In this document: positions 23,586-64,000 of the stretch, in pieces
Numbering within the stretch: the stretch's first letter is position 1
How the letters are laid out: each line of letters opens with the position of its first letter
Source of the DNA: a virus
Virus record (IMG/VR): IMGVR_UViG_3300032265_003779
Span: 23,591 to 87,590 of that record
Strand: one strand, 5' to 3'
DNA length: 64,000 nt
Made by a program: the position numbers and the translations under genes
The notes under the pieces: model-generated
Told to the model about the DNA's origin: nothing
The model's input: only the letters and a program-made list of their open reading frames with translations
Databases searched by the model: none

Positions 23586-23726
23586 TTATTTGATTTCAAT
23601 AACTATTTTGTTTTTATCTTTGGTTACTTTAAAACCTTTTGGTGTTAAGTTTTTGTAATAATCTAAATACATTTCTATTTTAGACTTTTTACCTTCTTTT
23701 TCTTCTACATATTTTTTAAATTTCAT
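23586..23726 (-). CDS. 46-residue basic protein coupled to the 643-residue gene
   Basis: Starts at 23726 with ATGA overlap on the stop of the upstream gene and ends one base from the end of the converging Cys-rich gene. The sequence starts with MKFKKYVEEKEGKKSKIEM and has a central YLDYYKNLTPKGFKV, ending in beta-type KIVIEIK. The start MKFKKYVEE is a weak match to the internal-protein tag. No family is recognised. Overlap and tight packing support it as a gene. Confidence 0.55.
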   Translation of the reverse strand: MKFKKYVEEKEGKKSKIEMYLDYYKNLTPKGFKVTKDKNKIVIEIK

Positions 23727-25654
23727 TTTAATCCTTCAGAAGAAAGATTTATTTTTTTGTGATATTGTTCAATAAGATCAAAGAATTTTTCTTTTTGCGT
23801 ACCACCAATGTATGAATATAAATATTTTGCAATAGATAAAATCTCTGGTTTCTTGATTTTAGTAATCCTATCACTACCTATTAATTCAAAAATTGATTCT
23901 AAATAGTTTTCTGGGATGTCCTTAGTAGCTTTAGTGAATGCACCGCCGAACATACCAGAATACCACTTTAATATAACTACTACAGCACTAGTGCTTATGT
24001 CTTTACTTAAAAGCCATTTTAAAAATTTAATTTGATAATTAAAATTATTTAACATCATTTGCTTTAATATAAATTCAACTAATTTTCCGGTTATTTTAGC
24101 TGTTCTGTTATTTAGTATCATTTCTAAAACATCAAATCCATTTTGAGTTACTACTGATGATATGCCATATTCATCTAAATTATTAAGAACTTCTGGTCCT
24201 AAAAGGACTATTGTTTTTTCTCGTTCTTTACTATGATCTTTTGGTCCGAATTCGTTAATAATCTTCTCGATAGCACCAGAATTTAAATTTGATTTTTTGA
24301 TAACATCTATGTTATCTTTTAATATTTGATATATATTGCCAGGATCGCTTGAAAGAATATTCTTAATAACAAAGCTTGAAATATTGCTAACCCCAACCTC
24401 CTTAAAAGAGTTTGACATTTTTTCAGCAAACTCATCTATTACTTTTTGTGCACCAAGTTTTTTAATAAAAGATTGTAATAATTTATCTTGGTCGTAAGAT
24501 AAGAATGCACTGTCAAACCAACTTGGATCTTTATATTTTATCAGATTTCTTAAAACTTCTATTGACTGATTTTTATCCATTCTTTCTAAGAATGAGTTAA
24601 TATTTTTAGCACCTATATTTTTATAAATATCAGAAGTATCTTCTGAATTCATCAATTCATCAAAACTATAGCTTCTGCTTAAATTGTAACATTTTATCTT
24701 AGATTTTAAATTTTTATTTAAAATATCATAAACATCACCTTCTAATTCTTTAACTGGTGTGTTGTCTACATCCATGAATTGGTGGTTACGATCATCATTG
24801 CAATCTACGAACTGATAAGCCGGTTTATCATCTATATGAATTGTGTATATGTTGTTTTTAGAATAATATGGATGATAAGTTCCTTGAGGATTTGCTGTAC
24901 ACCAAACTGTTCCTTTTCCATATTTACATAATATCATTTGCCGATCTTTTAATGTTTTATCGTCTGGGTTTACTTTGTCTAACGGAGCTCCTACTAGAGC
25001 ATTTTGTCTTATACTATCAAGAGATGGTCCTTTTTCTATCGCTGGAATAAAATATACTTTAATATTTTTTTCACTTTCAATTAACTTTACATATCTTTCA
25101 TCATCTCCTAGGGTTTCTCCTTTTTTCTTCATCTTTAACTTAGTTCTATTGCTTATTTCTTGTTGAGCAACTATATAAGCGTCCACATACTGTTGTGCCT
25201 CTGCTCCTATTGTCATCCAGCCTTTAGTTCCAATTTCAGTTTTAGGCAATTCACCATTGTCTACTCTTTGCTTGGTTACGTCTATGGCTAACTCAAGATC
25301 TTCTTGATGAATTTCAAGTCTTTTAAATATTGAAAATCCTAAACTAAAAGCAAACCAATTGTAATTTTCAACATTTTTTTCTTTTAAAACATTTATTATA
25401 ATATCTTTGGTTTGTTGGTTTATTATGCTATGTAAACTTTCTTTATCAGCATCACTTAAGGTTTTAGGATCAACTCCTATCACAGACTCACGTTCAAATT
25501 CCGTTTGGTGGTACGCTGGGAGGATAATCCAAGAATAAGGTTTAAGCAATCTTTTTTCATTTCCTTTAGCATATTGAAAAGCCAATTCAAGCCATTTATT
25601 AAAGTTTTCTTCTATGTTTTCATTTAAAAATAACCAATGTTTAAAAAATGTCAT
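23723..25654 (-). CDS. Large tagged protein, paralogue of 21341-23311
   Basis: 643 residues beginning MTFFKHWLFLNENIEENFN, with the same L-N-E/N site as its paralogue. Shared blocks: NVENYNWFAFSLGF, ELPKTEIGTKGWMTIGAEAQ, LCKYGKGTVWCTANPQGTYH, YQFVDCNDDRNHQFMDVDN. The C-terminal 350 residues are helical and differ more strongly. No ribosome site precedes the ATG; gataaataattatt lies directly upstream. Duplication followed by divergence of the C-terminal half is the simplest reading. Function unknown; packaging is inferred from the tag. Confidence 0.75.
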   Translation of the reverse strand: MTFFKHWLFLNENIEENFNKWLELAFQYAKGNEKRLLKPYSWIILPAYHQTEFERESVIGVDPKTLSDADKESLHSIINQQTKDIIINVLKEKNVENYNWFAFSLGFSIFKRLEIHQEDLELAIDVTKQRVDNGELPKTEIGTKGWMTIGAEAQQYVDAYIVAQQEISNRTKLKMKKKGETLGDDERYVKLIESEKNIKVYFIPAIEKGPSLDSIRQNALVGAPLDKVNPDDKTLKDRQMILCKYGKGTVWCTANPQGTYHPYYSKNNIYTIHIDDKPAYQFVDCNDDRNHQFMDVDNTPVKELEGDVYDILNKNLKSKIKCYNLSRSYSFDELMNSEDTSDIYKNIGAKNINSFLERMDKNQSIEVLRNLIKYKDPSWFDSAFLSYDQDKLLQSFIKKLGAQKVIDEFAEKMSNSFKEVGVSNISSFVIKNILSSDPGNIYQILKDNIDVIKKSNLNSGAIEKIINEFGPKDHSKEREKTIVLLGPEVLNNLDEYGISSVVTQNGFDVLEMILNNRTAKITGKLVEFILKQMMLNNFNYQIKFLKWLLSKDISTSAVVVILKWYSGMFGGAFTKATKDIPENYLESIFELIGSDRITKIKKPEILSIAKYLYSYIGGTQKEKFFDLIEQYHKKINLSSEGLK

Positions 25655-25673: not shown

Positions 25674-26342
25674 TTAATTAAACCTACTGTGTTTTTCTTT
25701 AAAAGCTATTGCTGAATTTTTGAAACCTGCTAGGGCGTCCATTCCTCCGTTAACTCCACCTTTTTCTCCGCTTATCCTTCCTGTCCAGTCCATTATTATT
25801 AGGTGTATTAAAATTTTAACTTTTCTTTCATTTTTATAATTTCCATCTTTGTCTAAAATTAAATTACCCAATCTTCTGGATAGTTGTCCGTCTCTTAAAT
25901 TCATATGATTATCTATACAGAAATAAAGATCGCTTAGCTCATCTGGGGCTAAATTATTTAGCATGTTTTTTGCAACTGGGTGTAGCTTATCGATCATAGG
26001 AAGATAGTGAGTAGATCTTTGATGATCTATTGCTTGTATTTTTCCTTCTCCTCCAGCCGACCAATGTTTTCCGCCAATAGTGGTAGCACTAGCTTTGCCA
26101 ATATCGTGAAGCCAAGCTGCCATTTTTAATATTTTTTCTTCTTTTTCATCTAAATGAAAGTTTATATTTTTAAATGGAAATTTATTAGATTCTTTAGATA
26201 ATAAATTTTTAGCAGTATCTAAAGATTTTCTTACCATTCTTGTGTGGTTGAGAACATTACCTTCTGCATGGTGATCTGGATTTTGAGGAACTGGTTCTAG
26301 AAGATCTTTAAAACTTGTTTCTAACCATAATTTAAATTCCAT
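25674..26342 (-). CDS. HD-domain phosphohydrolase with capsid-targeting-like tag
   Basis: 222 residues from the ATG at 26342, which has ribosome site agaggtg; a GTG two codons earlier is less likely. The tag is MEFKLWLETSF. The HD signature is H33 (NHTRMV), H79-D80 (AAWLHDIGKA) and a later Asp (CIDNHMNLRD). PDHHAEGNVLNHTRM resembles HD domains linked to tRNA nucleotidyltransferases and other nucleotide phosphohydrolases. It would cleave phosphoester bonds of nucleotides or RNA; the substrate is unknown. It lies 19 bases before the 643-residue paralogue on the same strand. Confidence 0.85.
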   Translation of the reverse strand: MEFKLWLETSFKDLLEPVPQNPDHHAEGNVLNHTRMVRKSLDTAKNLLSKESNKFPFKNINFHLDEKEEKILKMAAWLHDIGKASATTIGGKHWSAGGEGKIQAIDHQRSTHYLPMIDKLHPVAKNMLNNLAPDELSDLYFCIDNHMNLRDGQLSRRLGNLILDKDGNYKNERKVKILIHLIIMDWTGRISGEKGGVNGGMDALAGFKNSAIAFKEKHSRFN

Positions 26343-29432: not shown

Positions 29433-29915
29433 TCAACTATTCTTATTTTTCAACCATTCTGAGAATTTTTTAATTTCACTATCCTTTTTCCAACTTATTC
29501 TTTTACTACTTTTTTTTCTTTTTTTGCCTTTTGGATTACAGGCAGATAAATTTGGTCTACAGGCAGGATATTTTCTTTCTGCACCTTTGCCTGTTTTTTT
29601 TCTTCCGCAAGGCACTAAATTTCCTTTTTTGCTGGCTTTGCAGTCTATCCATCCTTTTCCATGATTTCTATCAAACCAACCTTTCAAACCTCTTTCTTTT
29701 TCTAGTTTAAATATATTTTCTTGAACTTTAAACTCTCCCTCTATCTCCAATTGTTCTTTTTTTGTTTTATTTCCCCAATTTTTTGCTCCTACTTTGCGAC
29801 ACCTAACCAATGATCCTGAACCGTAGGCCGAAGGCCAAATACGATACCTCGACTTTACTTTATAATAACACGCATCTTTCTCTTCTCTTAATTCAAGCCA
29901 TTTATTAAATTTCAT
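29433..29915 (-). CDS. Tagged protein with DUF5872/DUF6321-like Cys motifs
   Basis: 160 residues from the ATG at 29915. The tag is MKFNKWLELREEKD with an L-R-E/E site. Then YYKVKSRYRIWPSAYGSGSL, VRCRKVGAKNWG (the WPSAYxSGxLVxCR pattern I recall from viral DUF5872 proteins) and GWIDCKASKKGNLVPCGRKK, YPACRPNLSAC. The last motif resembles a small Cys-rich module seen beside DUF5872. The protein is very basic, as for a nucleic-acid partner. It shares a palindromic divergent promoter with 29937. Confidence 0.7.
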   Translation of the reverse strand: MKFNKWLELREEKDACYYKVKSRYRIWPSAYGSGSLVRCRKVGAKNWGNKTKKEQLEIEGEFKVQENIFKLEKERGLKGWFDRNHGKGWIDCKASKKGNLVPCGRKKTGKGAERKYPACRPNLSACNPKGKKRKKSSKRISWKKDSEIKKFSEWLKNKNS

Positions 29916-29939
29916 AATACTTATATATATTGTATTATG
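29913..29939. promoter_or_regulatory. Palindromic bidirectional promoter between two ATGs
   Basis: CATAATAC-ttatatatatt-GTATTATG: the outer 8 bases are exact inverted repeats and contain the start codons of the genes on both strands (29915 minus, 29937 plus). TATA-type boxes lie 4-5 bases before each ATG and neither gene has a ribosome site. Confidence 0.55.
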
Positions 29940-30653
29940 AAAAATTTCATACAATTCCTGCTAGAAGAGAAAACAAAAAACACTGAATTTAAAACAATTT
30001 TTGATTCTTTAGAAAAGAAGAAACAAATATTGTTTTTAACAACAAGCAATAGGTGGAAGCCAGAAGAAAAACCAAAGACTACTCAAATAGCATACTTTAT
30101 CAAAGATAATCTTAAAAATAAAAATTTAAAAATAATAGAAACCCCATCTTTAAACATACATCCTTGCGAAGGAAATATAAGTAGTAAAAAAGGGAATGGT
30201 TGTGGCTTAAAAGAATCTTTATTGAAAGATAAAAATAAAAATCCCAGTGGACTCCATAGGTGTTGGTGCAGCTTAAACAATAAAGATGATGAGCTTTGGA
30301 AAATATCAAAAGAACTATTTACTAGTGATTGTGTAATATTTTTTGGTTCTGTTCGTTGGGGAAGCATGAATAGTTATTATCAAAAACTTATAGAGCGATT
30401 AAGTTGGATTGAAAACAGACATACAACTTTCGGTGAAAATAATGTGGTTAAAAATATTAGTGCTGGTCTTGTTATTATGGGGCACAATTGGAATGTTGAT
30501 CAAGTAATGGAAACACAAAAACAAGTTTTAAAATTTTATGGATTTAAAATTGAAGAAAACTTATGCTGGAATCGCCAGTGGACAAAAGATTCAAAAGAAG
30601 AAACGTCAAAAGGGTATAAAAAAGATAATGAGGAGTTCAAAGAGATTATTTGA
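29937..30653 (+). CDS. Flavodoxin-fold NAD(P)H-dependent FMN reductase-like protein with tag
   Basis: 238 residues. The tag MKNFIQFLLEEKTK has an L-L-E/E site. The flavodoxin fold starts at about 31 (ILFLTTSNRW, KTTQIAYFIKDNL) and includes FTSDCVIFFGSVRWGSMNSY and KLIERLSWIENRHTTFGE, the layout of FMN-binding reductases. A Cys-rich insert lies between (HPCEGNIS, GNGCG, HRCWCS), which could bind metal. Cofactor binding and activity are inferred. If packaged, it would be a redox enzyme delivered at infection. A TATA-type box ends 5 bases before the ATG. Confidence 0.75.
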   Translation: MKNFIQFLLEEKTKNTEFKTIFDSLEKKKQILFLTTSNRWKPEEKPKTTQIAYFIKDNLKNKNLKIIETPSLNIHPCEGNISSKKGNGCGLKESLLKDKNKNPSGLHRCWCSLNNKDDELWKISKELFTSDCVIFFGSVRWGSMNSYYQKLIERLSWIENRHTTFGENNVVKNISAGLVIMGHNWNVDQVMETQKQVLKFYGFKIEENLCWNRQWTKDSKEETSKGYKKDNEEFKEII

Positions 30654-38380: not shown

Positions 38381-38884
38381 ATGGCATCTGAATATTTGAA
38401 CAATAAGAATTTAGAACGAGTTATTATATCTTTTCAAAAGATTAAAAGACATAAAAAAATGCATGAATATTTAATAAAGAATATAAATGAGCAAAGTCCA
38501 AAAGAAAAAGAGCCAGAATCTTGGACATACATCAAAGAACAGAGTAAAAAAAACATACTTGATTACGAAGATACTCAAAAAGACTTGGCAAAAGCATTTT
38601 ATACATTATCAGAAAATATTGTTAGATATGCAAAATTTAATTTAATAGATCCAGATGATAGTGTTCAAGAAGGAGTTTTAATTTGTTTTGAAAAATTAGA
38701 TAGATTTGATCCAAGATTTGGAAAAGCTTTTAACTACATGACTACTTGTATATTAAATCATTTTAAACAATTGTATAGATCTGCAAGAAATTATACAGAA
38801 CTTAAGAAAAAGTATCAGGAACATGTATCTAAAGAGATTCAGAGTGAAATAAATTATTCAAAAAATAATAAATTTAAAGATTAG
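38381..38884 (+). CDS. gp55: Late-transcription sigma factor, T4 gp55 type
   Basis: 167 residues. DPDDSVQEGVLICFEKLDRF, DPRFGKAFNYMTTCILNHFK and QLYRSARNYTELKKKY correspond to sigma-70 region 2 as found in T4 gp55 and relatives. In T4 this small sigma directs host RNA polymerase to late promoters that consist only of a -10-type TATAAATA box, with help from the sliding clamp. The ribosome site (aaggaga) is strong. It is the natural reader of the TATA-type boxes described in this window. Confidence 0.9.
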   Translation: MASEYLNNKNLERVIISFQKIKRHKKMHEYLIKNINEQSPKEKEPESWTYIKEQSKKNILDYEDTQKDLAKAFYTLSENIVRYAKFNLIDPDDSVQEGVLICFEKLDRFDPRFGKAFNYMTTCILNHFKQLYRSARNYTELKKKYQEHVSKEIQSEINYSKNNKFKD

Positions 38885-39345
38885 GTTTTTGGACCTCGTT
38901 TTAAACTGACTGGCTTTAATTTATCTTGATATCTATCTGGTTGGTCCTTTAAGTCCTGTAGCAGCTTATAAGCCTCTTTGCTTATTTCGCTTGCTGTTTT
39001 GCCGCTACAGCTTTCTGTTTTTATTACAGAAACAGCTTTATTGCTTTTATTATAAAAACCTCTGGATATTACGAAACATTTATTTTTAAAATCCCAACTT
39101 ACAATAGCAACCCATTCTCCATCATCCCAATTTCTAGTGGCTATTATCAGCCTATAAGGCTGTTCTGAGTATACATGTTTTGTGTGAAAACCATAATTTT
39201 TCATTGCAGCACTAACAAAGCCCAACGCTATCTTAGAGTATGCATCTAAGACTTCGTTGGGTTCTGTTCTGTAGTTTATAGATATGCTATATCTGGATAA
39301 ATCTACACTTTCTTCTAGTTTCCAATCATTAAATGATTTCATCAT
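38881..39345 (-). CDS. Unknown protein with capsid-targeting-like tag
   Basis: 154 residues. The tag is MMKSFNDWKLEESVD with a K-L-E/E site. The start overlaps the upstream stop (TAATG), and a second ATG follows directly. The body has a beta-rich core (PYRLIIATRNWDDGEWVAIV, SWDFKNKCFVISRGFYN) and a Lys-rich tail. No family is recognised; packaging in the head is inferred. Confidence 0.7.
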   Translation of the reverse strand: MMKSFNDWKLEESVDLSRYSISINYRTEPNEVLDAYSKIALGFVSAAMKNYGFHTKHVYSEQPYRLIIATRNWDDGEWVAIVSWDFKNKCFVISRGFYNKSNKAVSVIKTESCSGKTASEISKEAYKLLQDLKDQPDRYQDKLKPVSLKRGPKT

Positions 39346-51482: not shown

Positions 51483-52022
51483 CTACTTTTGAGCAACCAA
51501 AAAATTATCATTTTCTTCATCTGAATATAAAATATAATTTGAATTATTAGAAACCAATTCATTGTTCTTGTTAATAACATCAAAATTTTGTTTTGAAGAT
51601 TGATTATATCCTTTGACTTTATATTTATTTGCAAGTTTAACCCATAAAGATTTAGCTTCTGGTGTTTGCATTTTATCGCTATAAAGTTTTGTTTTAGATA
51701 AAACATAGTCATACATAATTGATGCCAAACCTTTTCCTCTGGCTTGTGGTTTCACACCTAGAGTGCTAATTTTATATCCATCTTCAAATTTTTCTAATCC
51801 CACATATCCCGTTGCATTATTTTTGTCATAAACTATAACTTTAACGCCATCTGGACCTTCTGACCATTGAAAATCAAAATTTAAAAATTTTTCTCTATTT
51901 AAATTAATTTTGTCGGCTTCGGATTTTGCCCAATCAATAAATTGATCGTAATTTATCGAAGATTGTAAGAGTGACGAATTATTTTTTATTTCTTTTAATA
52001 TTAAATATTGCTTAAAATTCAT
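51483..52022 (-). CDS. GNAT-family acetyltransferase with capsid-targeting-like tag
   Basis: 179 residues. The tag MNFKQYLILKEIKNN has an L-K-E/I site. The GNAT core is visible: GVKVIVYDKNNATGYVGLEK, YKISTLGVKPQARGKGLASI and MYDYVLSKTKLYSDKMQ, where V-x-P-x-x-R-G-K-G-L-A is the acetyl-CoA loop. T4 delivers ADP-ribosyltransferase Alt from the head to modify host proteins; a packaged acetyltransferase would be a comparable tool (inference). It starts 2 bases after the tagged gene upstream. Confidence 0.8.
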   Translation of the reverse strand: MNFKQYLILKEIKNNSSLLQSSINYDQFIDWAKSEADKINLNREKFLNFDFQWSEGPDGVKVIVYDKNNATGYVGLEKFEDGYKISTLGVKPQARGKGLASIMYDYVLSKTKLYSDKMQTPEAKSLWVKLANKYKVKGYNQSSKQNFDVINKNNELVSNNSNYILYSDEENDNFLVAQK

Positions 52023-52024
52023 AA

Positions 52025-52579
52025 TTAAACTTCTTTAATATTCCAAGTTCCACCTTCTCCGGGGTCTGGGATGAATTCTTTGTTCTTTTTATAAGATGGC
52101 TTTCCTTTTAATTTAGTTATATCCCAAGGAGATTTTTCTCCAACAGTAAACTTGGGGGGCTTATCTCCCTTAATGTGCTTTATACTCCATATTCCTCCTT
52201 CTCCTTGATCTGGGGTGAATTCTTTATTCTTTTTATATGTGGGAGCACCTTTAATATGCTTTATGTTCCACATTCCTCCCTCTCCATTGTTAGCAGCCAT
52301 TCCATGCTTATCAGGAGCTTTAGGAGTATCTTTTGGACCTTCTAGCTTGCTTATATCCCATAACCCTTTATCGCCAGAGTTTAAGTATTGATTCTGAAGT
52401 TTATGATTTTTAAAGTTATAGATTCTATCATCTAGTGATAAGTAAAAAATAGCATCAGCACTTCTTGTGATATACCATTGTGGTGGATAAAGACCTATTC
52501 CACCATAACCTAATGGATAGAGTCCTGTTTTAGATCCTGGGTTGGATCCCTCATTTAATAACCACTCTTTAAAGTTCAT
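52025..52579 (-). CDS. Tagged protein with five W-x-I-x-K repeats
   Basis: 184 residues. The tag MNFKEWLLNEGSNPGSK has an L-N-E/G site, the best match to the T4 consensus. The rest has repeats WDISKLEG, WNIKHIKG, WSIKHIKG, WDITKLKG and WNIKEV, linked by GEGG and YKKNKEF(T/I)PD segments of 24-35 residues. Repeated Trp/Lys motifs suggest a binding function, perhaps for DNA or capsid. A tatataat box lies two bases before the ATG; no ribosome site. Confidence 0.75.
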   Translation of the reverse strand: MNFKEWLLNEGSNPGSKTGLYPLGYGGIGLYPPQWYITRSADAIFYLSLDDRIYNFKNHKLQNQYLNSGDKGLWDISKLEGPKDTPKAPDKHGMAANNGEGGMWNIKHIKGAPTYKKNKEFTPDQGEGGIWSIKHIKGDKPPKFTVGEKSPWDITKLKGKPSYKKNKEFIPDPGEGGTWNIKEV

Positions 52580-52594
52580 ACATTATATATTAAT

Positions 52595-52789
52595 TTATTT
52601 TCGTTTTTTGTGTTTTTTGTGTCTAGGATATTGTCTTCTTACAACATCTGATCCTATTGGACGTAAAAACGGTGCTATATCTTTTGAAGTTGTGGCTCCA
52701 GGGCTGCCTGAAATTGAAGCAGAAGTTGTTGCCGCTGGTGCGGCGGCAGGTGCGGCAACATCTTCTAGCCATTTCTTAAAACTTATCAT
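52595..52789 (-). CDS. Small tagged protein with Ala/Pro linker and basic tail
   Basis: 64 residues. The tag MISFKKWLEDVAAP is followed by an Ala/Pro/Thr/Ser-rich linker, then FLRPIGSDVVRRQYPRHKKH and more Lys. Starts by ATGA overlap with the gene upstream. The basic tail would suit DNA binding inside the head, like the small basic internal proteins of T4. No family is recognised. Confidence 0.7.
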   Translation of the reverse strand: MISFKKWLEDVAAPAAAPAATTSASISGSPGATTSKDIAPFLRPIGSDVVRRQYPRHKKHKKRK

Positions 52790-53715
52790 TTACTTTTTTT
52801 ACCATGTTTCTTTTTGCAAACTAAGTATTCTTTTAATGAAAGTTTATATTTTGATGTTTCTTTATTTTTCTTTAAGTGATCTTTGCAGTCTTTAAAAGAA
52901 GCATTTGGCTTTTTTCCAAAACAATCCTTCATGCATTTTTCAGCCATTGACTTCATATCATCACTTGAATCGGTTGAGTCATCAGAGTCTGAGTCATTTT
53001 CTTCATCAGAATCTTCTTTTTTAGACTTTTTAGATTCAGATAATTCCTCATAAGTAGTAAAATTGTCAGATATTCTACCATTTGGAGCAAATCCAACTTC
53101 TCCTGGGGCTGGTTCGTCTCCCAAGCCACTAAAATGTTTGGCTGTTGGGTTTCCCATTTGCCCAATTATGCTTCCCATCCAATCTTTTTCAGCAGAAACT
53201 TCAATAGAGTCTGTTGATTCATTTTTCTTTTTCTTTTTATTTTTTGAAATTTCTTTCTTCTTTCTTAATATCTCAAAATCTTTTCCAGTTATTTTACCAT
53301 CACCATCAGCATCTAGTTTTTTCTGTCCGCCCTTTAAAAATTTAGGCTTTTCGTCCTCATCTTCATCTTCGTCTTCGTCTTCAATATCTTTATCTTCTTT
53401 TTTAGCCTTAGCTTTTTCTAAATCTACGTCATCTTCGTCAGAAAACATTGCTTTGCATGATTTGCAAGCTTTACAACCCTTGCTACAGCCACATTCTTTT
53501 TTTGAATTTGGTTCATCTGCTTTGCTGGCTGGGGGTACTGTTTCTCCGTCACCTGTAACGTCTACTTTAACTTTTTTCTTTCTTCTTCCTTCTTCAAAGT
53601 CTATTCCTTCAACACCGTTTGAAGAAATACCTAAAGATTGTGGTTGAGATAAACCTAAAGAAAAAGAACTAAAAACTGACTCATTTAATGATTTCCACTC
53701 TTTATAGCTAAGCAT
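52786..53715 (-). CDS. Tagged protein with EF-hand-like loop and Cys cluster
   Basis: 309 residues. The tag MLSYKEWKSLNESVF has an L-N-E/S site identical to the end of the capsid propeptide site (N-E-S). KKECGCSKGCKACKSCKAMF contains five Cys. A long acidic stretch (DEDEDEDEDE) is followed by DADGDGKITGKDFEIL, a canonical calcium-binding EF-hand loop (D1, D3, D5, G6, I8, D12). The C-terminus is acidic-Ser-rich and then basic. Calcium or other metal binding is inferred. First gene of a four-gene tagged operon; ribosome site agaggt. Confidence 0.75.
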   Translation of the reverse strand: MLSYKEWKSLNESVFSSFSLGLSQPQSLGISSNGVEGIDFEEGRRKKKVKVDVTGDGETVPPASKADEPNSKKECGCSKGCKACKSCKAMFSDEDDVDLEKAKAKKEDKDIEDEDEDEDEDEKPKFLKGGQKKLDADGDGKITGKDFEILRKKKEISKNKKKKKNESTDSIEVSAEKDWMGSIIGQMGNPTAKHFSGLGDEPAPGEVGFAPNGRISDNFTTYEELSESKKSKKEDSDEENDSDSDDSTDSSDDMKSMAEKCMKDCFGKKPNASFKDCKDHLKKNKETSKYKLSLKEYLVCKKKHGKKSK

Positions 53716-55453: not shown

Positions 55454-56677
55454 TTAGCTGTTTATTTCGGCATCAATTAGATCATCATCGTCTTCTGATG
55501 ATTCTACTTCCACAACATCACCAGATATTTCAAAATTAATTGCTTCCATATATGGAGCAAAATAATTTTCAACCTGTTCTCTGCTTTCTGCATTAATTAA
55601 TGCTGGATGATTGAGGAGAATTTCTAGCGGCATTTCATTTCTATCTAGACTAGCTTTGAATTTATTATCCTCTTTATCTTCTCCTAAATACTTTTCTTTA
55701 ATAATAAAATTGCCTGCTCCTTTAGCTTCCAACCTGTCATCTTCCATAAGACAGCTAAGAAGACCGCTAAGAGGATTTATTCCTTTTTCAAAAAGAAGCT
55801 GAATACCTTCTGATTCAACAAAAGGTCTATGTGTCTTGTTTTTAACATTCTTTAATTTAATGTTAACTCCAAGAATCTTGCTTTTCTTTGCAGTTATCTT
55901 CTTCTCTATTTTCTTTTGAGTCTGAGGTCTGATTCTACAACTAGCATAGAATGGAAGAGCATTTCCTCCTCCGGCAGTCGTTTCTGGATTGCCGAACATT
56001 ATTCCTATTTTTTCTCTCGTTTGATTTAGAATTATTACCGTAGCTCCGGTCTTTTCCATAACGCTATTAAGCTTTCTTAATTCACGAGAGCATATCTTGG
56101 CTCTTTCGCCAGGTTGCTCATTGCCACCTACAATTCTTTTATATGTGGCTTTGTCATAACCTTCTGGCAGATCAACTTCTCTTAATTCTCTTGCACTTGG
56201 AGAAACTCCAATGCTATCATAGACTATAACAATTGGTCTGTCTGGGTCTTTCTTTCTAATTTTTTCTATAAGAGAATACATCTTAGAAAAAACCTCCTCA
56301 AGAGACTGAGGGGTATATCTCAATACCCTGTTTAGGTCACAATGACTTGCTTTTTTAATAAACTCTTTGTTTGCACTATTTTCACAATCAAGAAGAACTG
56401 GTATTCCGCCCATCTTTTGACAACCATAAAGAATATTGTTGCCAAATAAACTTTTAGCAGAACTTGATGGTCCATAAATTTCTGTTAACTTTCCACCAGG
56501 TATTCCTCCATCAATAAATTTACCACTACAAATATAATTTAATGCTAAGCTTCCTGTGTCTACAAAGTAGTTTACGCTGTCTATTTTGTCTAATACATCA
56601 CCACCAGTTTCTTCGGCTATTTCCTTAAAAAGATCGTCCAGAGAGTCGTTTGATACTGATATTTTTTTTCTTGCCAT
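55454..56677 (-). CDS. uvsX: RecA-family recombinase, T4 UvsX type
   Basis: 407 residues. Walker A GPSSSAKS (69-76), DSIGVSPSARELREV in the Walker B region, VIILNQTREKIGIMFGNPET and TAGGGNALPFYASCRIR are RecA/UvsX features. It forms filaments on single-stranded DNA for strand exchange and recombination-dependent replication. The usual E/G of GPESSGKT are S and A here, but the catalytic Lys and Ser remain. The acidic C-terminus may interact with gp32 or mediator. It follows gp32 across a terminator, so expression may be separate. Confidence 0.93.
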   Translation of the reverse strand: MARKKISVSNDSLDDLFKEIAEETGGDVLDKIDSVNYFVDTGSLALNYICSGKFIDGGIPGGKLTEIYGPSSSAKSLFGNNILYGCQKMGGIPVLLDCENSANKEFIKKASHCDLNRVLRYTPQSLEEVFSKMYSLIEKIRKKDPDRPIVIVYDSIGVSPSARELREVDLPEGYDKATYKRIVGGNEQPGERAKICSRELRKLNSVMEKTGATVIILNQTREKIGIMFGNPETTAGGGNALPFYASCRIRPQTQKKIEKKITAKKSKILGVNIKLKNVKNKTHRPFVESEGIQLLFEKGINPLSGLLSCLMEDDRLEAKGAGNFIIKEKYLGEDKEDNKFKASLDRNEMPLEILLNHPALINAESREQVENYFAPYMEAINFEISGDVVEVESSEDDDDLIDAEINS

Positions 56678-56766: not shown

Positions 56767-57759
56767 TTATAGATCGTCAATTTCCTTCAAAAATTCATCA
56801 TCAGCCATAATTTCTTCTTCTTCAACAACTGCTGAAGAGGATACGGAGTCCAATCCTAGATCTTTGGGAGCAGACTTTTGAACAGGCTTAGATGTCGATG
56901 TTGTTGTTTTAGATGGAGATGAAAACTCACTTGAGTCATATCCATCATCATCGTGGCTCATCTCTTGAATGATTCCAAGATGAACCTTAAGAGCATGCTT
57001 AAGTTCTTCTTCGCTCTTAACAACTCTGATTGCTTGCAGATCATTCAAATTGTCGAGCCAACCATTGATCTCTTCAGGGTCACCCAGAGGCGATGATTCA
57101 ATAAACTTTGAAAGATCGTAGTTAGGATACTCACCATTCAATTTCTTGACTACTCTAAAATCTCTACCATTCTTGGGATTAGTTACATCTCCAAGAGGTT
57201 CTTCTCCAGCAGCTTTATCGCCAACAATTGCTCTTACAATCATCGAGTGAATAGTCTTACCACAACTAAAAATCTTTGGACCAACGTTTTTAATTATCTC
57301 GCCAGTCTTAGGATCTTTTTCTTGACGAACTAGGGCGTTGTAGTAGTATCTTTCAATACCTTTTAATTCTCTATACTGAGCTTGAAGCTCCTGTCTTTCT
57401 TTCTCTGGGGCTTTTTCACTCTTTGCCCAAAGATCTCGTAGATACTTGTCTATTATCGTATTTTCTCCCACCCACTTTGGGCGACCTTTCTCATCTTTAA
57501 CCAGTTCTTTTGGGCTAAAAAACACTCGCTTGTTACCACTGCCGTCCTTCAGCATGTGGTATTTAACAGCACAAAACAATGGCTGTCCCTTACGGCGTGG
57601 GAGAAGTCTGATTGTCAGGAATGAATTTCCTTCACCAGTACCTTGCCCGCTGGGCATACGAACATAGTTTGTAGAATTTTCCTGTCCTGTGTTCTTTGAA
57701 TTAACTCTAGCACTCTCAAGTTCAAGTTCACTAATATCCAAGGCTTCATAATTTGCCAT
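56767..57759 (-). CDS. gp32: Single-stranded DNA-binding protein, T4 gp32 type
   Basis: 330 residues. NSFLTIRLLPRRKGQPLFCA, VKYHMLKDG, IERYYYNALVRQEKDPKTGE, TNPKNGRDFRVVKKLNGEYP and NYDLSKFIESSPLGD match the core of gp32-like proteins. The C-terminal 60 residues are Ser-rich and then acidic (EEEEIMADDEFLKEIDDL), the typical protein-interaction tail. The zinc-binding Cys set of T4 gp32 is not evident. Strong ribosome site (gaggag). Confidence 0.9.
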   Translation of the reverse strand: MANYEALDISELELESARVNSKNTGQENSTNYVRMPSGQGTGEGNSFLTIRLLPRRKGQPLFCAVKYHMLKDGSGNKRVFFSPKELVKDEKGRPKWVGENTIIDKYLRDLWAKSEKAPEKERQELQAQYRELKGIERYYYNALVRQEKDPKTGEIIKNVGPKIFSCGKTIHSMIVRAIVGDKAAGEEPLGDVTNPKNGRDFRVVKKLNGEYPNYDLSKFIESSPLGDPEEINGWLDNLNDLQAIRVVKSEEELKHALKVHLGIIQEMSHDDDGYDSSEFSSPSKTTTSTSKPVQKSAPKDLGLDSVSSSAVVEEEEIMADDEFLKEIDDL

Positions 57760-58185: not shown

Positions 58186-58857
58186 TCACCTTATTGAAGG
58201 AATGTCTGTGTTTACGGTACCTTTCCAATTTAAACCATCATCGCTTAGTCCAAAATCGTTTGTATCTTCTTCCAACTGAGCTTTTGGAACAAAATACTCA
58301 TCTGAAACATTTTTTTCTTTTCCATTATCATCTATTACAAGATAAATTTCTGTTGCTGGGAGTACGGGATGTTGTTGAATTTTAAATATATCATAAGACT
58401 TATTTTGAGTTAATTTAGTTCCAGATTTCAACAATTTTATATGTTGTTGTGGTTCTGGGACATATGCCATTCTTTTGATAGATCTACGCACAGAGTCAGG
58501 TTGAACTACATTGGTGTAAGTAAAGGCTTCTTCTTCTGTGTTGTTGTTGATCACATGGGTTTCAGTATTCTCTGCTTTTACTTCAAAAGTATCATCTAAT
58601 CCAAATTTTTTATTTTTAATTACTATACCGCTTTTTGATTCTTTGAAATTTATCTTTTTCTTTGTTATTTCAAATATTTCAACATTTTCTACAAGAATAT
58701 CTCTTCTTGCCAATTGTCTTAAAATAACACTCGCCAGATTTTCGATTGGGGTATCTTCGTAAGGATCTCCAACTCTTTTCTTAAAAGTTCCAGATTCATT
58801 GTATTCGCCCGTTTCTTTATCTTTTTCTTTATGGTAAAAAGTTATTTCGTATCCCAT
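58186..58857 (-). CDS. Unknown protein of the replication block
   Basis: 223 residues: MGYEITFYHKEKDKETGEYN, DPYEDTPIENLASVILRQLA, RRDILVENVEIFEITKKKIN, FKESKSGIVIKNKKFG. The beta-rich N-terminal domain is well formed, and a polar C-terminal part ends in LSDDGLNWKG. The start overlaps the upstream stop (TAATG). A DNA-metabolism role is inferred from its neighbours only. Confidence 0.6.
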   Translation of the reverse strand: MGYEITFYHKEKDKETGEYNESGTFKKRVGDPYEDTPIENLASVILRQLARRDILVENVEIFEITKKKINFKESKSGIVIKNKKFGLDDTFEVKAENTETHVINNNTEEEAFTYTNVVQPDSVRRSIKRMAYVPEPQQHIKLLKSGTKLTQNKSYDIFKIQQHPVLPATEIYLVIDDNGKEKNVSDEYFVPKAQLEEDTNDFGLSDDGLNWKGTVNTDIPSIR

Positions 58858-59459
58858 TATTTTTTTACAACTCCTGTTATGTTTCTTGTTTCAAACACTT
58901 TATATTCTTTTTTATATCCATTTGCAATATTAAAAAATATTTCTTTGCTTTTATTATTTTTTATGTGATCAAAAACCATATATCCATTCTTGTTTAAATT
59001 TAAATAGATAAAATCGCAAAGAGCAAAAAGTTTATCATAATTATCTTTTATGCTTATTATAGCAACATCAAATTTTTTATTTTCTATGTTTTCTAAAAAC
59101 GTTTTATCAAGAAAGTCTCCATAATATGTTTCTATCTTTTTTTTATAATTTTTTTTAATATTTGAAAGATATAAACTTTTATCCCAATTTATTTCTGTTT
59201 TTGATTGAAATCCAAAGTAATACTCTACAGTTTTACAAGATTTTAAAAAACAACTACTTATAAAACCTAAATCGACACCGACTTCTAATAATGAATTAGG
59301 TTTTAAATATTTTCCAAGATGGTAATAAAAAGGTATATACAAACTATCGTTGTAGGCATGACTTTTCTTGCTAGCTTCGTCAATAAATTTAAAATTACTT
59401 GTTAATACTTTGGTTGTAATTAAAGATTTTTTTAAATCGTTTTCTAGTGTGTCTAACAT
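58857..59459 (-). CDS. Class I SAM-dependent methyltransferase-like protein
   Basis: 200 residues. SLLEVGVDLGFISSCFLKSC is motif I of the Rossmann-like fold, FDVAIISIKDNYDKLFALCD corresponds to motif IV, and NKNGYMVFDHIKNN to the strand that follows. The layout resembles the Methyltransf_24 family, whose members methylate small molecules or sugars. Substrate unknown. Coupled to the downstream gene by TAATG. Confidence 0.7.
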   Translation of the reverse strand: MLDTLENDLKKSLITTKVLTSNFKFIDEASKKSHAYNDSLYIPFYYHLGKYLKPNSLLEVGVDLGFISSCFLKSCKTVEYYFGFQSKTEINWDKSLYLSNIKKNYKKKIETYYGDFLDKTFLENIENKKFDVAIISIKDNYDKLFALCDFIYLNLNKNGYMVFDHIKNNKSKEIFFNIANGYKKEYKVFETRNITGVVKK

Positions 59460-59473
59460 TTTATTTTACAAAT

Positions 59474-60742
59474 TTAATTAATTATCGCTCTTTTTAACCA
59501 AAAATTTTCCAGGCTTACTTCACTAATCTTAATTTTTGACATTTTTATAATATCTTCTCTCATCTTACTGGTTTCTTCATTTTCTGTAATAGAACCCATT
59601 CTTTTGGCGTATATTATATCTGTGATCCCAAAATTAATAATTCTTTGTAGACAATTAACACAAGGAATTCCTGTTATATAAATTTTAGCTCCACCTATTG
59701 TTAGAGGATTTTCTCTGCTATTCAGCATAGCATTTTCTTCAGCATGAATCATCCAGGGTCGTTTTTTTTCCCTTATATTATAAGGAATTTTACTTTTATC
59801 TGAGTTTCTAATTGTGTTGTTATAACCAGTTCCAATAATGTGATTTTGATTAGTGACTATTACTGCTCCATGCCTAATATTAGGATCATCTGATCTGAGT
59901 GAGACGTCGAATGCTATATTTAAAAAATATTCATCAAAGGTTGGACGATCAATTTTACCAACAGAGTATTGATTCAAAAAACAAGCTCTACAATATTCCA
60001 AAAATTGTTCATCATTTAAAGCCATTCTCATAATATTTATTTTTTTATGAACCCACCTAACATTTCCTTCTATATATCCAATTGAATTATCTATCCGATC
60101 TAGAGAGGCGTTTGTGAAATCTTTTCTTGTTGAGGTGTCCGATCTGTGAGGGGTGAACTGAAGTGGTATATCGGAGAGAGCACATTTTTTGTTTTGTTTA
60201 ATAAATAAATCCCATAAATATTCGGGAGTTACAGTAAACAAAAAATTTCTTTTAATAGCATTTTGTTTTGTATTATTAATATGACTTAGTGGTATTTCAC
60301 CACATCTTCGTCTAAGTGGATCTAATTTATTATTTGTATGATTTTTCTTATTGCCACATGTTATTTTATTTCCTGACGTCAAAGAGTTTGTGGGAACATC
60401 GCAGATTTCTCCACATTCGCATTTACAAACCCAAATAACACCTCTGGTTTTTGTAAATTTATCACTTTTATTGACGACAGTTAAATACCCAAATTTACAA
60501 CCAGTCAAATCATTAAAATTATATTTTTTTGATTTTAAGAATTTACAACCACAAGATCTTGTGCCTTTTCCCTTATTTCTCAAATTGGTAGCCATCACAA
60601 ATACTTCTTTACCACAAGAACACCTACATCTCCATGTGGATTTAGATATACGTTTTTTCTTTCCAATAAATTTGCTTTGTACTTTTTCAAGAACAAGCAA
60701 TTCTCCAAAAGTTTGACCTTTTAAGTCTGCTGCTTTAGGCAT
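59474..60742 (-). CDS. Fusion of zinc-ribbon/HNH endonuclease and dCMP deaminase
   Basis: 422 residues in one frame. Residues 1-135 hold two CxC/CGC zinc-ribbon units (WRCRCSCG...SCGC; WVCKCECG...CG). Residues about 185-252 are an HNH-type module (KKCALSDIPLQF, ASLDRIDNSIGYIEGNVRWV). From about 266 a complete dCMP deaminase follows: RPTFDEYFLNIAFDVSLRSD, HGAVIV, H333-A-E335 (catalytic) and P360-C361-x-x-C364 (zinc). The deaminase makes dUMP for dTTP synthesis. Deaminases normally begin with Met just before RP(S/T)-DEYF, so the endonuclease seems to have fused at this point. Intein splice residues are not visible. Confidence 0.85.
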   Translation of the reverse strand: MPKAADLKGQTFGELLVLEKVQSKFIGKKKRISKSTWRCRCSCGKEVFVMATNLRNKGKGTRSCGCKFLKSKKYNFNDLTGCKFGYLTVVNKSDKFTKTRGVIWVCKCECGEICDVPTNSLTSGNKITCGNKKNHTNNKLDPLRRRCGEIPLSHINNTKQNAIKRNFLFTVTPEYLWDLFIKQNKKCALSDIPLQFTPHRSDTSTRKDFTNASLDRIDNSIGYIEGNVRWVHKKINIMRMALNDEQFLEYCRACFLNQYSVGKIDRPTFDEYFLNIAFDVSLRSDDPNIRHGAVIVTNQNHIIGTGYNNTIRNSDKSKIPYNIREKKRPWMIHAEENAMLNSRENPLTIGGAKIYITGIPCVNCLQRIINFGITDIIYAKRMGSITENEETSKMREDIIKMSKIKISEVSLENFWLKRAIIN

Positions 60743-60793
60743 TTTTATTTTTACCTAAAATGGTGGTGGAGGCAAAAGTCCATTTAATATTAC

Positions 60794-61375
60794 TCATACT
60801 GTCTTTACTCTGTATTTTTTCCATATCTCTAAATCAAACTCGCTTACAGTTTTTCCAGAATTTTTAGCCAATTCAATGAATATTTTTTCAATCTCTATAT
60901 ATTGTTTTTTGTTAGGAGTAGATTTTGGAACTTTATATCCCAATTCTCCCAGGTATCTTAAAACATGTCTGTCTAATCCTGCCAGATTTTGGTCTTTTCT
61001 TGTGTGTATCAAAAAACACCTTACACTTTTAGGTCCAAGTCCCCAAACACTTTCTAGCTCTTCTATAGTGCATTTTGATAAATCAAAATTTTTACTTATC
61101 AAATCTTTTATAGATTTGCTTTTATTATTAAAACAACCTACACCGAATCTTTTTAATTCTTGAGGTAAGTCTTCTATGTTTCTAACAATATCAAAAGGGC
61201 TTTCTAAATTTGTTTTTTTACTATACTCTTGAAGAATATTGTCTAAACACCTTGAGGCTGTATGTCCATTTTTGCCTGCTGCAAATATCCAAAATAAAAT
61301 ATGGAGTTCCAATCCACTTTTATCTAGATTAAAATCTGTACAGTTGTCTGGGTCTATCTTGTAATTCACTTTCAT
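60794..61375 (-). CDS. HhH-GPD family DNA glycosylase-like protein
   Basis: 193 residues. The helix-hairpin-helix SVWGLGPKSVRCFLIHTRK is followed by NLAGLDRHVLRYLGELGYKV, in which the Asp of LDRHVL occupies the place of the GPD catalytic Asp. Such enzymes remove damaged bases and may cut the strand. The usual Fe-S Cys cluster is absent. It starts by ATGA overlap with the UvsY-like gene and lies in the replication block. Confidence 0.7.
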   Translation of the reverse strand: MKVNYKIDPDNCTDFNLDKSGLELHILFWIFAAGKNGHTASRCLDNILQEYSKKTNLESPFDIVRNIEDLPQELKRFGVGCFNNKSKSIKDLISKNFDLSKCTIEELESVWGLGPKSVRCFLIHTRKDQNLAGLDRHVLRYLGELGYKVPKSTPNKKQYIEIEKIFIELAKNSGKTVSEFDLEIWKKYRVKTV

Positions 61376-61857
61376 GCCTCTGATACAAAACGGTCTATGT
61401 CTGAGAGTTTATAAACATCTTTGTTAAGCTTATCTATTTCTTTTCTTAAAGTATATCCACGATTTTGAGCGTTATCATGATTTCTATCCCATGCTTTTAA
61501 GTGAGCTTTTATTTGACCAACAACTTCGATTAATTCTACAACTTTTTTCTTTGCAGAAATAACATCTGGATTTGCATTAGCTTTTGCTTTTGCATATTGT
61601 TCTGTTCCGCCATCATCTTTGGCTTCTATATACTTTTGACTAAAAATGGCTTCTGCATCTATTTCGGCATCAAGTCTTTCTTTTTGGGCATATTCTAATT
61701 GCTTACCAAAATAATCTACCCATCCATATTCTTTTTCCATGTATTCATTCAGAGTATTGTCTGAGAATTCCATGTTCTTTGCATCAAGAGTTATCTCTTT
61801 ACCATTAACATTAACTTTAACAGTCTCAATTGGAGCATTCATAGATTTTACTTTCAT
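61372..61857 (-). CDS. UvsY-like recombination mediator candidate
   Basis: 161 residues, mostly helical. YGWVDYFGKQLEYAQKERLD, the central EAKDDGGTEQYAKAKANANP, DVISAKKKVVELIEVVGQIK and AHLKAWDRNHDNAQNRGYTL run in parallel with T4 UvsY (W...L.......A..ARLDYY..., S..K......DKDV..., ...R). UvsY loads UvsX onto gp32-covered DNA, and both partners are encoded nearby. The similarity is one of pattern and size only. ATGA overlap with the helicase gene. Confidence 0.5.
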   Translation of the reverse strand: MKVKSMNAPIETVKVNVNGKEITLDAKNMEFSDNTLNEYMEKEYGWVDYFGKQLEYAQKERLDAEIDAEAIFSQKYIEAKDDGGTEQYAKAKANANPDVISAKKKVVELIEVVGQIKAHLKAWDRNHDNAQNRGYTLRKEIDKLNKDVYKLSDIDRFVSEA

Positions 61858-63410
61858 TCAAATGTGTCAACATTAGATTCGTCTGTCGGATCAAAAAGAA
61901 TTTTACTTTTTCCTTTTTTACCTTTACTGTTTGAATCTTTTGTAATGGAGTCTTTGTTGTCCATTATTGTATCAGCTTTCTTTTGATTTACAAGATTCAT
62001 TTTTTGTTTATAAGATTCTTGGCTTATTTCATTTATGTCCAAAGTTCCAAATTCATAATCAAAATTAACCCATAATGGAAAACGACTTTTTCCATTTCTG
62101 TGTTTGATTATAAATAATCTGGCTACTCCTGCATCCTTTTCAATTGGTTGTTGATTGATGCTCCAAAAACAATCTAATGGTTTAAATTGGTCGAAACTTG
62201 TGCCTATATTACTTTCATCAATATATTGTCCTTGTTCAAGCTTGCTTGCACTTGAGTTTGGTTGAACACATGTTATTGTGCAGTGTTTTTGCTCTATTCC
62301 AAATGCTCTTAAATCTCTTAAAATTCTATATGCACTTTCGTATTTTTGTAAACTCGGATCATCCTTCATTTCACCAACATAATCAACAACAAGTAAATCA
62401 GGTTTGAATCCCCTCATTACTAATTGAGCATAATATGCTTTAATTCCATTGACGTCCATTGTTCCACCAGGAAATTGTTTAATTATAAGCATGTTGGAGT
62501 CTAGTTTATCTTCTTTGAAAGCTTCTACATGATTTATAATTCTTTGTTTGCTACTCATTAAATCATTAATATCGCATTTAATCCATTGACTTGTAAATCT
62601 CTGGCTTATTCCTAGTTCATCCATCTCCATTGTTATGTAAAGAACCTTTTTTCCTCTTTTTACATTCTCAACAGAGGCTCGACACATGGCAAGTGATTTA
62701 CCAGTGCCCGGAAGGGCTATCCAAGCTCCAATATTTCCTATTTGCAGTCCGCCGCCAGTTAAAGCGTTGTCTATGCCATCAAAACCGGTGGTGAATGTAT
62801 CCACGCCTTCATATGTCTTTTTCATCCTTTCAAACATTTCTTCAATATTTTTGAAATATTCAAACCCAGGCTCATAGTTTCTATCTATGAGCATTGTTTG
62901 TCTCATTTGATCATAAATATAATTCCAAGTAGCCTCATCTTCTGGGGCTTTGGTCATTTTATCTAAGCACTTATGAAATGCGATTTTAACAGATTGAACC
63001 TTAGCAAAATAAGTTATTTTATCTATTAAAGCTTCTCTTGTGTCTATTCCTGGGATATAGAAATCATAAACCTTTTCAATTTCAGCAAGAGATGCTATTT
63101 GAATTTCTGGAGTTCTATCTTTATATTCTTTAAAAATTTCTTCTTTTAAAAACCATTTTTCAGGTAATGTTTTATATCTGTCAAAATATGAATAAAGAAA
63201 ATTAACTATTTGAACGTGTATTTCTTTTGAAAAATAATTTGGTTTTACTTTATCCAAGGATTGAATTAAAAAATATCTATCAGTTAGAAGCATTCCAACC
63301 AATCTAGTTTGGAAACTGTCGTCCCAACTAAACTTTGATATTTGACTATTGTCCTCTTCAGAAATAATTTGTGCTAGACGGTGCTCTTCTTCTTTTGTTA
63401 GTTCTGTCAT
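61854..63410 (-). CDS. gp41: Replicative DNA helicase, T4 gp41 / DnaB type
   Basis: 518 residues from the ATG at 63410; an in-frame GTG 28 codons upstream overlaps the previous gene and is less likely. Walker A ALPGTGKS (232-239), then VLYITMEMDELGISQRFTSQ, DLLVVDYVGEM (Walker B) and IKHRNGKSRFPLWVNFDYEF near the end are DnaB-type. The N-terminal domain (TRLVGMLLTDRYFLIQ) matches the helical hairpin family. It unwinds DNA 5'-3' at the fork with primase. It ends by ATGA overlap with the UvsY-like gene. Confidence 0.92.
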   Translation of the reverse strand: MTELTKEEEHRLAQIISEEDNSQISKFSWDDSFQTRLVGMLLTDRYFLIQSLDKVKPNYFSKEIHVQIVNFLYSYFDRYKTLPEKWFLKEEIFKEYKDRTPEIQIASLAEIEKVYDFYIPGIDTREALIDKITYFAKVQSVKIAFHKCLDKMTKAPEDEATWNYIYDQMRQTMLIDRNYEPGFEYFKNIEEMFERMKKTYEGVDTFTTGFDGIDNALTGGGLQIGNIGAWIALPGTGKSLAMCRASVENVKRGKKVLYITMEMDELGISQRFTSQWIKCDINDLMSSKQRIINHVEAFKEDKLDSNMLIIKQFPGGTMDVNGIKAYYAQLVMRGFKPDLLVVDYVGEMKDDPSLQKYESAYRILRDLRAFGIEQKHCTITCVQPNSSASKLEQGQYIDESNIGTSFDQFKPLDCFWSINQQPIEKDAGVARLFIIKHRNGKSRFPLWVNFDYEFGTLDINEISQESYKQKMNLVNQKKADTIMDNKDSITKDSNSKGKKGKSKILFDPTDESNVDTFE

Positions 63411-63465
63411 CTTTTGCTTTATTTTTAAGGTGTTTGTAACATTGTATAGCACAGAAGAATTTTTA

Positions 63466-64000
63466 TCAACCGGTAACCAAATAATCGTATTCACTCAAGC
63501 TGCATTGCCCGGATCTTATGTTTTTTTCTTTAGTTATTTTTTTACCCATAGATTTTTGACCATTCCAAACAATTGCTTTGCAGTATGTGGAAAACTTGCA
63601 ATCAATTTTTAAAATATCATTTTTATTAGGTTTGTTTTCTTTTGGAATATAATTTTCTATTATTTTTTCTAGTATGAATTCTTGATAATCTCCAAATTTT
63701 TGTCTGTTTGCACCATGTTTAGTTTTGTTCTCCCATAGGTTATCCAAACTTTCAACAATCTTACTGATGAATAAATTTTTAACATAAATTTTACTTAATT
63801 TAATACATTTTTCTATGTAGACTTGCCTTTTATAGTATGAACCAGCTCTTATAATTGACATTTGTAATTCTTGGTTAATATCTTCAATGTCCTCTGCTAC
63901 ATTGTTTCTAGAATTCTTTTTCTTTAATTGATGTGCAGCATAATAACATAATTTTCCAAATTTTTTATTTAACTCAAAATACTCTTTGTCAGTTATTGGG
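63466..64000 (-). CDS. Unknown protein, possibly sigma-like (5' part outside the window)
   Basis: The frame is open to the right edge, so the gene begins beyond 64000; 177 residues are visible. KKFGKLCYYAAHQLKKK, EDIEDINQELQMSIIRAG and SYYKRQVYIEKCIKLSKIYV recall the sigma-70 region 2 pattern (ED..QE....iirA..Y), and a polar Lys-rich end follows. An ATG at 63861 would give a shorter 131-residue form, but the open upstream frame continues the same motif. A transcription role is tentative. Confidence 0.5.
   Translation of the reverse strand, partial: PITDKEYFELNKKFGKLCYYAAHQLKKKNSRNNVAEDIEDINQELQMSIIRAGSYYKRQVYIEKCIKLSKIYVKNLFISKIVESLDNLWENKTKHGANRQKFGDYQEFILEKIIENYIPKENKPNKNDILKIDCKFSTYCKAIVWNGQKSMGKKITKEKNIRSGQCSLSEYDYLVTG

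Follow-up and report, generated by a model that had tools for sequence, protein, structure and literature searches.

Gene 56 of bacteriophage T4 encodes dCTPase. The GIY-YIG endonuclease SegF, encoded at the soc/56 locus of this phage and listed with gene 56 as its target, was reported to cause intronless homing and to exclude the recipient's gene 56 marker (Belle et al. 2002, as cited in PMC2988022). More generally, free-standing endonucleases of T4 are promoted to the progeny by cutting alleles that lack them, sometimes with replacement of neighboring genes (PMC2988022). Free-standing phage HNH nucleases include the Mob-type enzymes MobA and MobE of T4 and the I-HmuI-like enzymes of Skunavirus, for some of which homing or marker exclusion was measured, and which are not described as fused to a metabolic enzyme (PMC2988022, PMC12724721). 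Homing endonucleases of the F-CphI type, possessing an endonuclease VII motif, are described as endonucleases on their own (PMC6083498).

Here, we analyzed a 64,000-nucleotide stretch (the window) of an 87.6-kb viral record, IMGVR_UViG_3300032265_003779, which contains T4-like replication and tail-sheath genes; a UvsX-like recombinase, a DnaB-like helicase, and a single-strand DNA-binding protein (SSB) were identified by profile and the sheath by tblastn. A gene in this window resembles segF in that a T4-like phage carries an endonuclease gene in close linkage with a gene of nucleotide metabolism and in that the recipient's neighboring allele is replaced. However, SegF is encoded by a separate GIY-YIG gene overlapping its upstream gene by 11 bp, whereas the endonuclease in the window is of the HNH type and is fused in frame to its cargo, a dCMP deaminase. 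Its DNA-binding part also differs from those of MobA, MobE, and the I-HmuI-like enzymes. As far as could be checked, the components and the apparent mode of spread are of known kinds, and the covalent union with the cargo, the replacement of a resident gene in several backbones, and the preservation of decay stages appear to be new. No report of an HNH-deaminase fusion was found in the open-access papers searched.

An HNH endonuclease and a dCMP deaminase in one reading frame

The fused gene (59474..60742, minus strand) runs uninterrupted from an ATG at 60742 to a stop codon at 59474 and encodes 422 amino acids, arranged from the N to the C terminus as two zinc ribbons (residues 1 to 140), an HNH domain, a short linker, and a dCMP deaminase. 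All features given below for the window without a strand lie on the minus strand. The first ribbon (aa 6-69; 60536..60727), with the pattern CxCxCG...SCGC, is presumed to bind DNA; the second (aa 76-138; 60329..60517) was recognized by its conserved cysteines and by a match to phrog_374 from aa 71 onward. The HNH domain (aa 144-258; 59969..60313) was delimited by a family alignment, by a structural model with pLDDT values mostly between 80 and 95, and by matches of the N-terminal part to the HNH endonuclease family phrog_374 (E=2e-29) and to phrog_3322 (E=3e-21); a Pfam search detected no HNH model in the fused protein. Its core motif, SLDRID...GYIEGNVRWVHKKIN (aa 213-236; 60035..60106), contains S213, R216, and N236, which are present in 26 to 27 of 28 HNH relatives and lost together only in the contig L003, and C108, C110, and C129 of ribbon 2 are common to 23 to 26 of the 28. 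The motif GYIEGNV belonged to our search pattern, so that its invariance is no evidence; the other positions checked were outside the pattern. With a conserved HNH-type core, zinc ribbons, and all near-invariant residues checked, the window protein has the features of this nuclease class. In structure databases, no significant PDB sequence match was obtained for the nuclease part, a PDB profile search based on the HNH alignment yielded no meaningful match, and the more probable Foldseek matches included PacI (probability, 0.89) and the Gme HNH nickase (0.72), both weak, with E>0.1.

The zinc-ribbon HNH endonucleases of phrog_374 and phrog_3322 are free-standing proteins widespread in phages and, by profile and alignment, include the N-terminal 260 residues of the window protein. 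These relatives stop at the HNH tail, whereas the window frame continues into the deaminase. Of 55 related HNH proteins from viral contigs, most extend no more than a few dozen residues past the HNH core, and the free-standing L180 protein (54% identical) terminates with ...NIMRMNMSDEELLEWCRLIIGYNKK at the very point where the deaminase of the window begins. Elsewhere in the family, a member is fused in frame to a cytidylyltransferase-like/NMN adenylyltransferase-like protein (L113:1853-2812, plus strand; PF01467, E=4.9e-7), and in another the HNH domain is duplicated in tandem inside one open reading frame (L135:3557-4714, plus strand).

The deaminase domain (aa 266-422; 59477..59947) matches PF00383 at aa 269 to 379 (E=2.5e-19) and the dCMP deaminase family phrog_174 (E=2e-32). 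Its top Foldseek matches are the dCMP deaminases of human (DCTD; 2w4l), Streptococcus mutans, T4 (Cd; 1vq2), and phage S-TIM5 (4p9c). Besides this fold, it has the zinc-binding H[AC]E ... PCxxC core of dCMP deaminases: the zinc and catalytic motif HAE (aa 333-335; 59738..59746) and, in the zinc motif PCVNC (aa 360-364; 59651..59665), residues P360, C361, and C364 are invariant in the alignment. The fused protein thus carries a dCMP deaminase, predicted to convert dCMP to dUMP. The solved T4, S-TIM5, and human enzymes share its fold and zinc motifs but, unlike the fused protein, lack an N-terminal nuclease. In the AlphaFold model, two well-predicted regions lie on either side of the joint (aa 259-265; 59948..59968): the HNH tail helix ends at residue 257, and the first deaminase helix begins at residue 269, whereas residues 259 to 264 are of low confidence. 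An intein or intron was rejected as an explanation, since the deaminase is complete on one side only, the fusion is one-sided, and Rfam revealed no intron in the window. Searches found no second deaminase in the 87.6-kb record, itself a fragment, no named phage record covering the fused protein (P0001) at 80% or more, and no relatives among bacterial genome candidates.

A preliminary description of this DNA had proposed an in-frame HNH endonuclease-dCMP deaminase fusion, with an N-terminal part resembling a free-standing phage HNH gene and a deaminase devoid of its own initiator methionine. It had named two ways in which this picture might fail, a sequencing error and the production of two separate proteins. 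The open frame and the profile matches of both parts confirm the fusion, and the mostly free-standing HNH family, with L180 ending at the joint, bears out the resemblance. A sequencing or assembly error is excluded by an independent full-length homolog, L002, from another IMG/VR contig and another metagenome (82% amino acid identity), by a decayed copy in eight further contigs (the L003 clade, which consists of eight near-identical contigs), and by uniform purifying selection through the joint. Between the window and L002, dN/dS was 0.10 for ribbon 1, 0.11 for ribbon 2, 0.07 for the HNH domain, 0.14 for the joint, and 0.09 for the deaminase; strong purifying selection acts on every segment of the frame, the joint among them, and equally on the nuclease and deaminase parts.

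That an internal start or proteolysis frees a separate deaminase, making the fusion only apparent, seems very improbable. The nearest ATGs upstream of the deaminase, M238 and M240, are indeed located 26 to 28 codons ahead of it in both the window and L002, and the Shine-Dalgarno strength of the gene's own start is only modest (-3.8). However, the deaminase has no initiator methionine of its own, both codons lie inside the conserved HNH tail, and neither is preceded by Shine-Dalgarno complementarity (+1.6 kcal/mol), a sequence likewise missing before some other genes of this phage. Moreover, M238 is an HNH-family position (INxMK) in the family alignment and not a conserved start. Thus, an internal start near residue 240, which the preliminary description had suggested looking for, is not indicated, and the constraint on the joint itself also argues against two products. 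The gene probably encodes a single protein, with a putative homing-type HNH endonuclease attached directly to the N terminus of a dCMP deaminase.

The deaminase slot in related phages

A scan with the helicase retrieved 42 loci from the same phage group, more than 30 of which show a slot with the gene order helicase, small gene, (glycosylase-like HhH), (acetyltransferase), deaminase, methyltransferase-like, small gene, SSB, and UvsX. In the window, the backbone markers of this survey are the DnaB-like helicase (61854..63494), the SSB (56767..57759), and the UvsX-like recombinase (55454..56677). The slot is bordered upstream by an 8-oxoguanine glycosylase-like HhH protein (Ogg-HhH, phrog_11575; 60794..61375) and downstream by a methyltransferase-like protein with a Pfam match below the cut-off (58857..59459). 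Nearly all slots outside the L003 clade, on more than 30 contigs, contain an unfused deaminase of another type, and every fused copy occupies the same slot. Unfused deaminases in relatives, another check suggested in the preliminary description, were thus found in close relatives and at the same genomic position.

The nearest relatives of the window, L186 and L187, have helicase, SSB, and UvsX proteins with 95%, 96%, and 99% amino acid identity to those of the window, and their slot deaminase is unfused and 41% identical to that of the window. By blastn and MAFFT breakpoints, homology between the window and L186 is lost at 60794, where the glycosylase-like gene has its stop codon, and returns at 59462, 3 nt ahead of the methyltransferase start; the intervening 1,331 bp (59463..60793) are nonhomologous, and the flanks are 87 to 89% identical DNA. 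In comparisons of L002 with L230, L189, and L190, the breaks (1395-1399 and 2680) lie exactly around the fused gene, with flanks of 83 to 89% identity (86 to 89% with L230 and L189). L194, a member of the L003 clade, and L201 share flanks of 80 to 83%; here, homology breaks at 10845 and at 9867, a position within the upstream gene and about 50 nt from its end. Judged from these homology breaks, the fused gene takes the place of the resident deaminase in three different backbones, with breaks at or near gene boundaries.

According to their backbone genes, L002 groups with L189, L190, and L230, and the window groups with L186, yet the window and L002 share the fused gene. Third-position identity between the two was 0.644 in the fused gene and 0.518 in five backbone genes (Fisher p=6.5e-6), and dS of the fused gene was 1.03. 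The resident deaminases of L186 and L230 (nucleotide identity, 0.72; dS, 1.74) have diverged like the backbone, and these two loci form one 6.5-kb match at 72%, aligning straight through the slot. For this reason, the unfused L186/L230-type deaminase likely represents the ancestral slot content. As expected of a homing element, the fused gene is polymorphically present or absent at a fixed site among relatives, and its phylogeny is incongruent with the host genome, considering that the sequences are few and dS is near saturation, so that ages and timing are only rough. Different from such elements, the nuclease is not a separate gene of its own but is fused in frame to the deaminase. Together, these patterns indicate that the fused gene may move as one piece, replacing the ordinary deaminase in other phages.

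In the deaminase tree, the window, L002, L003, and the unfused L192 protein formed one clade (100/100), adjoining L011, L013, and L015. The related deaminases of L011, L013, and L015 are also unfused to an HNH nuclease, and those of L013 and L015 adjoin ribonucleotide reductase genes; the L013 protein (3719-4510, plus strand) possesses a different N-terminal extension of about 100 aa. A deaminase of Tunturi_5 was rejected as a candidate HNH fusion, as its extension is C-terminal and not of the HNH type. In L192, the slot is occupied by a window-type deaminase with no HNH part, and L191 contains yet another deaminase and no endonuclease; the slot can therefore turn over without a detectable nuclease, which argues against a necessary role of the nuclease. 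A crude motif search recognized no endonuclease in 15 other slots.

Nuclease decay and other nuclease-deaminase pairs

The L003 lineage has lost ribbon 1 and one half of ribbon 2; leucine stands in place of the cysteine at position 129, and S213, R216, and N236 are replaced by F, M, and S, respectively. Compared to the window, dN was 0.43 in the HNH part and 0.13 in the deaminase (about 3.4 times), and the deaminase retains its motifs. The nuclease of this lineage has, as read from these substitutions, decayed, and the fused deaminase persists. The deaminase appears to be independent of an active nuclease, because it is conserved in L003 despite the loss of ribbons and of three near-invariant HNH residues.

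An endonuclease-deaminase architecture was also detected in a second, unrelated phage. In L067:3473-4423 (plus strand), a single frame combines an endonuclease VII domain (PF02945, E=1.7e-21) with a dCMP deaminase (PF00383, E=9e-27). L067 and L068 belong to one viral population (99.98% identity), and their nuclease and deaminase sequences both differ from those of the window fusion; coverage of the L067 fusion at 80% or more was found in no named phage. These sequences show that the predicted architecture arose at least twice. The nuclease part of this fusion shares its catalytic motif class with F-CphI, which, unlike the L067 protein, is not joined to a deaminase. Our fold search also returned BFVD A0A6J5KVY7 (339 aa, aligned over 324 columns), possibly a further HNH-deaminase fusion. 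The 337-aa deaminase of Salmonella phage rivia (378 aligned columns) was rejected as such; it appears to result from an SSB-deaminase read-through via a short deletion.

The preliminary description had also considered a bifunctional enzyme in which deamination is coupled to DNA cutting, for example through a nuclease gated by nucleotide binding or through local nucleotide supply at the cut. A single open reading frame, a short linker, purifying selection on both parts, and the occurrence of the L067/L068 fusion in an unrelated phage would fit such a coupling. However, nuclease residues and zinc ribbons have disappeared in L003 without loss of the deaminase, related deaminases exist unfused (L011, L013, L015, and L192), and the L067 fusion represents one viral population. 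A coupled enzyme is thus not indicated, and we regard it as scarcely likely.

A different nuclease was found beside a deaminase in the same slot. L190:5764-6684 (plus strand) is a 306-aa GIY-YIG-type gene (P0004; phrog_20046) with a 4-nt overlap with the deaminase gene. Its product has no Pfam GIY-YIG match itself, and the assignment was made via its homologs in L237 (E=1e-4, passing the Pfam cut-off) and L236 (E=0.002, below the cut-off). L189 and L190 have the same deaminase (98.4% nucleotide identity; dS, 0.07) within flanks with dS of 0.7 to 1.5, and L189 possesses a 70-aa nuclease remnant (4340-4552, plus strand), in which residues 1 to 34 and 271 to 306 are kept with 100% identity and the middle is deleted in frame. 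It seems that a nuclease-deaminase pair was transferred recently and that its nuclease decayed afterwards. In Rhizobium phages, such as RHph_TM3_3_9 (L236:1380-2535, plus strand), a deaminase gene has a 14-nt overlap with a homolog of the L190 nuclease gene; in RHph_TM3_3_9, the pair is next to a helicase gene. The idea that dCMP deaminase genes generally attract homing endonucleases was dropped, since a survey of 66 neighbor open reading frames at 47 distinct deaminase loci gave no sign of it, with no HNH or GIY-YIG among the 25 most frequent families; seven matches to phrog_452, annotated as endonuclease, were obtained in the same survey.

Possible mode of spread

We consider it reasonably probable that the fused gene encodes a homing-type HNH endonuclease joined in frame to a divergent deaminase and spreading by replacement of its competitors' deaminase. 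In this model, the endonuclease and its divergent deaminase would travel together. When a fused and an ordinary phage infect the same cell, the presumed nuclease would nick or cut the ordinary phage's DNA in the deaminase region and thereby trigger the replacement: with the fused donor as the repair template, the ordinary gene would be exchanged. This would be intronless homing, or marker exclusion, by a driver to which the cargo is fused. Since the donor's deaminase has no sequence relationship to the target allele, its own DNA would be spared. Since the deaminase would keep supplying dUMP for dTTP synthesis, loss of the element would cost the phage a useful gene, and upon nuclease decay, as in L003, the deaminase would hold the remnant in place. 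The preliminary description had suggested a mobile endonuclease locked to an essential gene; for a gene that is useful and perhaps essential, this reading gains support from an otherwise free-standing HNH family, from replacement in three backbones, and from a distribution in conflict with the backbone. More tentatively, the fused gene can be viewed as a self-linked gene-replacement cassette that may compete with other endonuclease-linked deaminases, such as the GIY-YIG type of L190, for one slot, in which the core enzyme would be repeatedly exchanged and the unit retained for its useful cargo.

The exchanges might alternatively be passive, with ordinary recombination between conserved neighbor genes swapping the deaminases and the HNH part hitchhiking without a driving role. 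Breakpoints at or near gene borders and the slot turnover in L191 and L192 agree with such displacement, which we nevertheless judge unlikely, since swapped deaminases of this slot have endonucleases of two different classes as neighbors or fusion partners, and one such endonuclease accompanies the latest transfer, that in L189/L190. Quite unlikely, too, is vertical inheritance, by which the fused gene would be ancestral to the window, L002, and L003, domesticated rather than mobile, and the relatives would have swapped in ordinary deaminases. The age of the fused genes of the window and L002 (dS about 1.0), the equal constraint on both of their parts, and the common slot of all fused copies are in favor of such inheritance. 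However, divergence is lower in the fused gene than in the backbone, and L186 and L230, members of different backbone groups, share a related resident deaminase with backbone-like divergence, aligned through the slot.

If the fused gene spreads by replacing resident deaminases, as we favor, it would illustrate a route to persistence: free-standing homing endonucleases are expected to disappear once fixed, and in-frame fusion to a useful enzyme may prevent this. The stages of such a cycle can be seen at this locus, in the ordinary slot of L186 and L230, the intact fusion of the window and L002, and the decayed element of L003 with its cargo kept, as well as in a rival nuclease-cargo pair, intact in L190 and freshly deleted in L189. 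The locus also shows that a gene of nucleotide metabolism can be replaced again and again while its place in the genome stays the same, which has to be considered when phage gene trees are read and when marker exclusion during mixed infection is to be predicted.

Apart from the deaminase slot, the window contains a second, free-standing endonuclease-like gene (14449-15234, plus strand; phrog_681/559), situated between a gene probably encoding the major capsid protein (12919-14349) and a tRNA-Pro gene. In addition, fourteen mostly unlike open reading frames of the window share the N-terminal motif M-x(1-4)-F-x-x-[WFY]-[LI]...E, which occurred zero to one times in five shuffled windows. They are located at 1406-3985, 8653-8928, 8925-9284, 21341-23311, 23723-25654, 25674-26342, 29433-29915, 38881-39345, 51483-52022, 52025-52579, 52595-52789, and 52786-53715 on the minus strand and at 23379-23585 and 29937-30653 on the plus strand. 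We take this motif to be reminiscent of the T4 capsid targeting sequence, and the fourteen products are possibly a set of co-packaged internal capsid proteins.
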